Assembly: GCA_947561715.1 (NCBI GenBank)
Contig: OX387200.1
Span: forward strand, 312,501-376,500
From: Ascidia mentula
Lineage: Eukaryota > Chordata > Ascidiacea > Phlebobranchia > Ascidiidae
DNA: 64,000 nucleotides
Direction of reading: 5' to 3'
Below the pieces are notes generated by a model. The model was given only the letters and a program-made list of their open reading frames with translations. It was not told where the DNA came from and did not search any database. Positions 44,078 to 46,107 of this stretch are shown in pieces. Within the stretch, counting starts at the first letter, position 1; each line of letters opens with the position of its first letter. A program made the position numbers and the translations under genes.

Positions 44078-46107
44078 TCATTTGTCGCTCTCCCCTTTGA
44101 AGACATAGGTAAGCCCACACTTCCCGCAATATTGTCGGTCGAAGTGGGAAGCCATGAACACACCAGCCCCACATTCTGGGGTTGGACATTCACGTCTCAA
44201 TCTGGTGATCTTGCCATTCTCATCAACCTACACAAAGATCAGACTTAGAAACAAACCGTTTAATGGGACACTTGGTCAGCCAATGTCGTCTATTAAAATA
44301 TGTACCAGGAGTCAATGTTCAAATCAAATGACTGAACAAAAATATCGCATCAAGGTTTGTTTTTATGCAGCTCAGAAACACTAATCCACACGATTTGTTA
44401 AGAACGGCGAGTGATTATTTTCATCACAGCTGCAACAGTTAATGGAGGTTAATATTATTTGACAAGATTACTTGTCACAAAAAAAGTCAACAAGTTGCAA
44501 CTCTTGCAGAAAAGCATTGGTGCAAGCAATAGTCCCATAATTAAACTGGAGAAAAACAAAATTTACATCTCAGTATGTACAGGAAACCATACCTTGTAAT
44601 ACTTGAGGGTTGCAAGCTTGACCTTGACTCGCTTGTGCTTGATCTTCTTGGGGGTAGTGTAATTCTTCTTCTTCCTTTTCTTGCCTCCTCCTCTCAGTCG
44701 AAGAACAAGATGAAGAGTGGACTCCTTCTGGATGTTGTAATCACTCAGGGTCCTTCCATCTTCCAATTGTTTTCCAGCGAAGATCAACCTCTGCTGGTCG
44801 GGAGGAATTCCTTTCCGAAATAATACAAGCAAGTGTTAACACCACATGTCATCAGAGGTACAAGTAGTCTATGTGTGGATGCAACTATCTGTTTACCAAA
44901 CAGTAACAGCTGCTTTTTACATTGCTCAGATTTTCAGTATAAATAATCAAGCTGGATATGTAATCCTATTCATTTGGTGTCCTAAGTTTTGGCATCATAG
45001 CAATGTACATCTACACACTTAAATTGAAACCAAATCAAGTTCAACATACCCTCCTTGTCTTGGATCTTTTGTTTTACATTATCGATAGAATCCGAGGCTT
45101 CTACCTGAAGAAACATTCAGATGAATTAAAACAACATTAAAAACTCTTAGTAATATGAAGGGACGTAGGTAATAATGACATCAAACATATAGTTGTTGCT
45201 GCTCAGAGGATGGCGGTTTGAAGCATAGATAAAATAAATTTTAACTCTTGAACCCACGCACTATTTCATCACCGCAACAACAACATGCTATATATACCAG
45301 GGGTCTCAAACATGCGGAAAGGCTTTTTGTGCAGTCCATTAAGCCTTTTAAAATTTTACATAGAAGTTATTCCTTTTAGTCGGAACCAAAAAAATGCTCT
45401 TGATTCTATTGTTTAGTCACTGAAAGCCATTGTTCCTTTGTAAGCTGGTCTTGCAAGTTGGCAATTTTACAAAATCACTGCAACATTTTAAAAAAATGTT
45501 GTAAACCGACAAAACCATCTCAGCCCACTTTAAGGCACATCATTTCAACTATAGTTTATTCCTGTTGTGCATTATTTTTGGTTAACAAAGCATAGTTTTT
45601 ATAGTGCGGCCCTTTACAAAGTAAGTTTTAATTTGGCCATCCCAGAAGTTTGAGACCACTGCTATATGCAGTATATTAGGAACCTACAACTACATACATA
45701 CCAGTTAAAATATCCATTTATTTTTACAAGCAATGCAGGGTATTTCTTATGATAAATTCACCATGTGTCAATGCAGACAAGCCCAACATACAATGATAAA
45801 GGCATATGCATATTTTTTGAAGGTAGTTTTGTTGCCCAAGTGTTATAGATTGTTGCCTGGTTGAAAACAGAATATTTGTGTTTGACTGGTTTTGATGTGA
45901 GACAGGAAACCCACTTGGTGATTACATGCCCCGGGTATTGAATTGGTCACAAACAGATAGAAATCAACAATCTAAGCACTTAATGTAAAACACGACTGCA
46001 CATTTTAAATGAATTTATCAAGTAAATCCACTGCATTGCTTAAGTTTAAACAGAAGTACCTCAAGGGTTATTGTTTTTCCCGTTAGGGTTTTCACAAAGA
46101 TCTGCAT
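44078..46107 (-). CDS. RPS27A: ubiquitin-ribosomal protein eS31 (S27a) fusion
   Basis: Four coding exons on the minus strand: 46060-46107 (ATG), 45050-45104, 44593-44810, 44078-44227 (TGA at 44,078-44,080). The product starts [16 protein letters not shown], reaches LRLRGG at residue 76, and continues with the basic eS31 extension ([18 protein letters not shown]) and its zinc-finger Cys residues (CPTPEC, CGKC), ending GESDK. Ubiquitin is cut off to join the ubiquitin pool, and eS31 enters the small ribosomal subunit. The ubiquitin part carries S22, D24 and Q28 where the usual animal sequence has T, E and A. Total length (155 aa) is close to the usual 156. Each coding intron contains a C/D snoRNA-like sequence. 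Confidence 0.98.
44366..44434 (-). ncRNA. C/D box snoRNA in last intron of RPS27A
   Basis: Minus strand: terminal stem TGCAGCT/AGCTGCA, box C GTGATGA (44,421-44,427) and box D CTGA (44,372-44,375), 69 nt in all. Guide TCACTCGCCGTT followed by a CTTA D'-like box is complementary to AACGGCGAGTGA, which I recall as a conserved stretch in the 5' part of eukaryotic large-subunit rRNA. The D'+5 rule would place 2'-O-methylation on the second G of AACGG. The position inside a ribosomal-protein intron (44,228-44,592) is typical for animal snoRNAs. Confidence 0.85.
44918..45007 (-). ncRNA. C/D box snoRNA candidate in middle intron of RPS27A
   Basis: Minus strand: perfect 9-bp terminal stem (TACATTGCT with AGCAATGTA), box C-like ATGATGC (44,992-44,998; consensus RTGATGA, last base differs) and box D CTGA (44,926-44,929) at the stem. 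90 nt, inside the intron 44,811-45,049. The guide sequences were not matched to rRNA. Confidence 0.7.
45192..45281 (-). ncRNA. C/D box snoRNA candidate in first coding intron of RPS27A
   Basis: Minus strand: terminal stem GTTGTTGC/GCAACAAC, box C GTGATGA (45,266-45,272) and box D CTGA (45,203-45,206). Three bases separate box D from the stem, which is slightly loose. 90 nt, in the intron 45,105-46,059. Together with the two others, every coding intron of this gene carries one. Confidence 0.7.
45298..45661. mobile_element. non-autonomous hAT-like DNA element (MITE)
   Basis: Terminal inverted repeats CAGGGGTCTCAAAC and (reverse) CAGTGGTCTCAAAC bound a 364-bp non-coding element. The 8-bp flanks ATATATAC and CTATATGC agree at 6 of 8 bases, fitting a hAT target duplication. 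It sits in the first coding intron of RPS27A, about 20 bp from the snoRNA candidate. Its age is moderate, judged from TIR and flank differences. Confidence 0.75.

Follow-up and report, generated by a model that had tools for sequence, protein, structure and literature searches.

Release of intronic snoRNAs in animals depends on splicing of the host transcript. Ribosomal-protein (RP) genes are known as hosts: 27 of them are given for Drosophila (PMC2246290), and snoRNAs of U58 type sit in introns 1, 4, 5, and 6 of chicken RPL17 (PMC2653536). SNORD58/U58 (RF00151) is the guide of 28S Gm4198, and the chicken U58-type isoforms also guide the preceding U. The human methylation table lists both 4197 and 4198, assigning SNORD58A-C to the latter and leaving the former without a guide (PMC5597630); the chicken table has a U58-type guide for both positions (PMC2653536). 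In Plasmodium, RPS27a itself is a host, with two C/D snoRNAs, PFS15 and PFS16, in one intron. Plasmodium PFS10 is located in the last intron of an RP gene, and in other species downstream of the stop codon, and PFS9 lies within the 3'UTR of RPL7a (PMC2656528 for all of these). For tunicates, a genome survey reported few snoRNAs and left open whether many had been lost or had diverged beyond homology search; as stated in this survey, tunicate snoRNAs had not been systematically investigated (PMC5006418).

The window, i.e., the whole stretch of 64 kb of ascidian DNA that was analysed, contains the ubiquitin-eS31 gene (RPS27A) at 46107-44078 on the minus strand, with four coding exons. All 156 residues of the protein joined from the four exons match ubiquitin-S27a chains in a protein search, and the protein matches Pfam ubiquitin and Ribosomal_S27. 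When Pfam was run on five neighbouring stop-to-stop stretches together with the host protein, the latter alone gave a match at E 0.001. The parts of the gene and the AATAAA signals are as follows.

46060..46107, minus strand: RPS27A coding exon 1 (ATG at 46107; protein match)
45050..45104, minus strand: RPS27A coding exon 2 (from the sequence)
44593..44810, minus strand: RPS27A coding exon 3 (from the sequence)
44078..44227, minus strand: RPS27A coding exon 4 (stop TGA at 44080-44078)
46059-45105, 45049-44811, and 44592-44228, minus strand: RPS27A coding introns 1, 2, and 3, respectively (from the sequence)
44056..44061, minus strand: AATAAA, presumed poly(A) signal of RPS27A (from the sequence; 45 nt before snoA2)
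43825..43830, minus strand: second AATAAA, downstream of snoA2 (from the sequence)

Both strands of the whole window were scanned for a box C (RTGATGN or NTGATGA) with CTGA 45-110 nt after it and a flanking stem of at least 6 pairs with at most one G-U. Four matches were found, all of them at RPS27A and on its (minus) strand. With a stem of at least 7 pairs there are three matches (null mean 0.04, maximum 2), and with at least 8 pairs also three (null mean 0.005, maximum 1), the null being a set of 200 first-order Markov sequences as long as the window; snoA, with 6 pairs, falls below both stem cut-offs that have a null. A Watson-Crick-only version of the scan recovered three of the four elements and missed snoC. 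In the inferred 5'UTR intron, which is upstream of 46118, the scan found nothing. The four elements are listed below.

45192..45284, minus strand: snoC, C/D snoRNA-like, coding intron 1 (scan, fold, subthreshold Rfam match); box C GTGATGA 45272-45266; box D CTGA 45206-45203; stem of 11 pairs with one G-U
44918..45007, minus strand: snoB, C/D snoRNA-like, coding intron 2 (scan, SNORD58 model, 28S matches); box C ATGATGC 44998-44992; D' guide CTTAGGACACC 44986-44976; D guide TACTGAAAAT 44939-44930; box D CTGA 44929-44926; stem of 8 pairs
44366..44435, minus strand: snoA, C/D snoRNA-like, coding intron 3 (scan, fold, guide against primer D2F); box C GTGATGA 44427-44421; guide TCACTCGCCGTT 44414-44403; D'-like CTTA 44402-44399; box D CTGA 44375-44372; stem of 6 Watson-Crick pairs by the scan and of 7 by the model from RNAfold
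43933..44011, minus strand: snoA2, second copy of snoA, located beyond the end of the gene (repeat pair, scan, core identity, stem, SNORD121A model); box C 43999-43993; guide 43986-43975; box D 43947-43944; stem of 11 Watson-Crick pairs, 12 with one G-U

One element per coding intron on the gene's own strand had been reported in a preliminary description of this DNA, and the scan and the exon coordinates agree on it. The lengths of snoA, snoB, and snoC including stems are 70, 90, and 93 nt. A box C and a box D in all three, as described there, were likewise found: box D is CTGA in all four elements, and box C is GTGATGA in three, with snoB alone off the consensus in its last base. The terminal stems had been called perfect, which is right for snoA and snoB and slightly too strong for snoC, as one of its 11 pairs is G-U. 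Candidate D' boxes are CTTA in snoA and snoA2 and, weakly, ATGA in snoB; by eye, the C' boxes are unclear. The fourth element, snoA2 (44011-43933, minus strand), is an addition to the three described before. Three snoRNAs in one small gene had been considered special, a view that does not stand beside the four introns of chicken RPL17 (PMC2653536) and the two snoRNAs of Plasmodium RPS27a (PMC2656528).

Judged from its sequence, RPS27A very probably hosts ordinary methylation-guide box C/D snoRNAs of the known class. The reading of the elements as box C/D snoRNAs is supported by the two 28S guides of snoB, by the conserved core and compensated stems of snoA and snoA2, and by the Rfam C/D families matched. 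Guides of at least about 10 nt upstream of D or D' and complementary to rRNA were identified in snoB (11 and 10 nt) and in snoA and snoA2 (12 nt), and the one in snoC has 8 nt and is not significant. The three intronic elements would be released from spliced and debranched introns, which may then be trimmed back to the RNP formed on boxes C/D and the terminal stem. They end 87 (snoC), 107 (snoB), and 138 nt (snoA) before the 3' splice sites, distances that suit splicing-dependent release. Once released, they would guide fibrillarin to 2'-O-methylate 28S rRNA.

No Rfam match at gathering score was obtained in the 64-kb window. Between 43800 and 45800, Rfam gave 17 matches up to E 10, each to a C/D snoRNA family and 15 of them on the four elements; of the other two, one (20.3 bits) is opposite a coding exon, on the other strand, and one (20.2 bits) is beside snoA. 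Single scores near 20 bits mean little, as one of them lies antisense to a coding exon. The covariance search with C/D models, which had been named as a check, came out in favour of the elements in the families matched and, mostly, in their places, and fell short in that none reached gathering. Scores below gathering throughout, chance matches near 20 bits, and a snoC with no significant guide are what would be seen if boxes and stems had come together in introns by chance and no RNA were made. Such an origin is nevertheless highly improbable: three matches with a stem of at least 7, confined to a single gene and to its strand, stand against a null mean of 0.04, the core of snoA and snoA2 is kept while their stems have changed and still pair, and snoB has two guides to 28S.

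Viral contigs served as a control, and in them a box C followed by the snoA or the snoB guide was found at 6 + 39 loci. A Watson-Crick stem of at least 5 together with CTGA starting 40-130 nt after box C was present at 0 of these 45 loci (best stem 3), several of which are near-copies with identical matched stretches and so are not independent. In the window, the same snoA and snoB guides are carried by three elements, whose Watson-Crick stems have 6, 8, and 11 pairs. Scanning viral contigs with 28S motifs gave 0 loci and then 3 loci, and the Rfam matches there were tRNAs and ROOL RNA, with no rRNA. A plasmid search with snoA found nothing.

With the elements taken as methylation-guide snoRNAs, snoB is similar to SNORD58 in its D' guide of 11 nt, box C, box D, and stem. 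Aligned with the SNORD58 model, snoB is identical to it at 11/11 positions of the D' stretch CUUAGGACACC, and U58-type snoRNAs sit, as snoB does, in introns of RP genes such as chicken RPL17 (PMC2653536). Unlike SNORD58, snoB is hosted by RPS27A and carries another guide to 28S ahead of box D, and its score is 23.1 bits against a gathering score of 42; because of this score it is called a functional counterpart of SNORD58 and not a family member. Two plant families slightly outscore SNORD58 on this stretch of snoB (25.7 and 23.7 bits), but with poorer E-values. The complement of the D' guide is present in the metazoan 28S primer F2800, published in PMC4860332.

Both snoB guides were compared with a eukaryotic 28S end (here L004; BQJP01000067.1, 1-1948) found in a bacterial MAG contig and recognized by LSU_rRNA_eukarya with 915.5 bits. 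The complement of the D' guide is at 661-671 and that of the D guide at 733-743, both 11 nt long, the latter made up of 10 nt before box D and the initial base of the box itself. No other match of at least 8 was found for snoB within the first 1750 nt of L004. Among 500 shuffles of snoB, one match of at least 11 occurred in 22 and two matches of at least 10 in 3. Of the other elements, snoA has no match of at least 8 to L004, snoA2 has a single one (8), and snoC has three (9, 8, and 8); for snoA and snoA2 this covers 28S without its 5' part, where the putative snoA target lies.

The residue methylated under a C/D guide is given by the fifth-nucleotide rule. With AUGA as D', the rule predicts the U of GGUGUCC as the D' target of snoB, the next base being G, and this U followed by G fits the neighbours Um4197 and Gm4198 of 28S. 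Through its D' guide, snoB would act at Um4197/Gm4198, and through its D guide, which matches about 70 nt downstream, at a U some 75 nt beyond that site. The predicted D target is U738 of L004 (fourth U of AUUUUCAGUA); it is near Um4276 but probably distinct from it, as Um4276 would be U742 if the spacing equals that in human.

The contig with L004 is labelled as a Thermodesulfobacteriota MAG, and its eukaryotic 28S end is accompanied by GGGGTTT repeats, which we take to be ciliate-like. On account of this 28S end and the repeats, L004 is regarded as contamination of the bacterial MAG. An insert-like stretch near 830-1205 of L004 may be an intron; no Rfam intron family matched it at gathering.

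Against 14 published primer stretches, snoC reaches at best 8 nt of complementarity, CGCCATCC with GGATGGCG of LSU1600R (PMC10426732), with one base unmatched before box D; this is equalled by 118 of 400 shuffles, hence not significant. A subthreshold Rfam C/D match of snoC is snoZ157 with 21.9 bits against a gathering score of 55. By the 28S sequence, GGATGGCG is presumably at Um2824, the site of SNORD34, so that CGCCATCC before box D of snoC could pair with 28S there. The site is listed in PMC5597630. Unlike SNORD34, snoC would pair over 8 nt with a mismatch next to box D, a match of the insignificant kind given above, and SNORD34 is not among its five Rfam matches. As the best guide match is not significant, snoC is treated as a C/D element with no assigned target.

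The cores of snoA and snoA2 are identical in 57 of 59 bases (97%). The common block of 59 nt stops 2 bases outside box C and 1 base outside box D, and the flanks are unrelated (identity 23/91 and 21/91). Both core differences fall outside the D' guide and the boxes, which are intact in snoA2. Among the six inner stem pairs, four show double changes that keep pairing, two are unchanged, and none is broken; with partners slid by 1-3 columns, at most one double change remains. The observed compensation was reached by 36 of 500 column shuffles and, coming from two sequences, is suggestive and not strong. The best Rfam match of snoA2 is SNORD121A (RF01191), with 29.4 bits (E 0.0075; 0.00036 in a second search), which it resembles in boxes, stem, and size. 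It differs in scoring below the gathering score of 44 and in the aligned guide stretches, and SNORD121A is absent from the matches of snoA; the similarity is treated as a common scaffold, not homology.

Beginning 45 nt beyond the AATAAA at 44061-44056 and followed by the second one at 43830-43825, snoA2 could be past the poly(A) site or within a longer 3'UTR, since it is bracketed by the two signals. It might also derive from an intron that belongs to some unseen gene further downstream. Its place outside the RPS27A introns, 45 nt beyond AATAAA and off the usual splicing route, would suit a non-expressed duplicate left downstream, with snoB, snoC, and one or both snoA copies being real C/D snoRNAs. 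This is rather unlikely in view of the stem of snoA2, which with 11 Watson-Crick pairs exceeds those of the other three elements, and of its intact guide and boxes: at random window positions with a fixed spacing of 61 nt, 11 pairs were found in 0 of 2,000,000 and at least 6 pairs in 913. As an expressed snoRNA, the likelier case, snoA2 would most probably come from RNA extending beyond the first poly(A) site and be protected by its long stem, which is the least certain step of the proposed mechanism.

The 12-nt guide TCACTCGCCGTT is present twice in the window, in snoA and in snoA2, and directly abuts the D'-like CTTA. It is complementary in 12/12 nt to AACGGCGAGTGA of the 28S primer D2F (PMC10598981). 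The predicted target of both elements is the second G of AACGG (AACGGCGAGUGA) near the 5' end of 28S. We take this stretch to be in domain I of 28S, near nt 90. The reverse complement of the D2F stretch serves as a 28S primer for ITS, which agrees with a target place near the 28S 5' end (PMC10598981). A match to the primer stretches as good as the observed one was given by 1/400 shuffles of snoA, 1/400 of snoA2, and 2/400 of snoB, counts that are biased because the primers were sought using 28S letters already believed to match. The first site of 28S in the human methylation table is 398 (old number 389), with none earlier (PMC5597630). In plants, five mapped and nine more predicted methylations are counted, at the level of the domain, in 28S domain I, and the mapped ones mean that this domain can be methylated. 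Gm75 was considered as the relevant site and rejected, being a site of 5.8S (PMC5597630); names of modification sites are also found in PMC4463414 and PMC8393311.

The pair might instead hold the 28S 5' domain during folding, as chaperone C/D RNAs, or be orphans with some other target, and no methylation would then occur there. Such a role is possible but doubtful, as a 12-nt guide abutting a D'-like CTTA has the geometry of a methylation guide and the plant sites, mapped and predicted, point to a methylatable domain. We tentatively propose that snoA and snoA2 direct methylation in the 28S 5' region, at the second G of AACGGCGAGUGA and off the human map, and that snoA2 is made from RNA downstream of poly(A) cleavage.

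The locus is similar to Plasmodium in its RPS27a host and in an RP-gene C/D snoRNA located in the last intron or beyond the gene. It differs in having one element per intron, where in Plasmodium two share an intron, and in having intronic and downstream copies in one genome, where in Plasmodium the position varies between species. If the proposed reading of snoA and snoA2 is true, the move from intron to downstream position that is reported between Plasmodium species would be seen within one genome, and it would be a sign that the snoRNAs of tunicates escape homology searches and have not been lost. In this ascidian window, the elements favour divergence for at least one site, as none passes an Rfam threshold, yet the guide of snoB is common to vertebrates. 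The points of interest are a snoA target absent from the human table, a pair of intronic and downstream copies, and the question of loss or divergence in tunicates; the guides yield direct predictions for RiboMeth-seq, and snoA2 would test how a snoRNA arises outside an intron. Among titles and abstract openings of the literature on RPS27A/S27a, on Ciona and tunicates, and on 3'-flanking snoRNAs, a scope with most subscription journals outside it, no description of these elements was found. What seems to be new is the set of four elements below gathering scores, with one pair that would guide to the 28S 5' domain.

Several minor observations concern the window and the host gene. A tRNA-like match of ARAGORN at 16187-16275, with the anticodon printed as 'cc', is probably spurious, since there is no Rfam match at gathering there. 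Intron 1 carries a MITE-like inverted repeat at 45298-45661, 13 nt upstream of snoC, with ends CAGGGGTCTCAAAC and GTTTGAGACCACTG and arms that are 74% complementary; a second copy was not found in the 64-kb window at E 0.05. The ubiquitin moiety of the host protein (46107-44593, minus strand) differs from the ubiquitin of PDB chain 8q7r_U in 4 of 76 residues (P19A, T22S, E24D, and A28Q), which is a lot for so conserved a protein.
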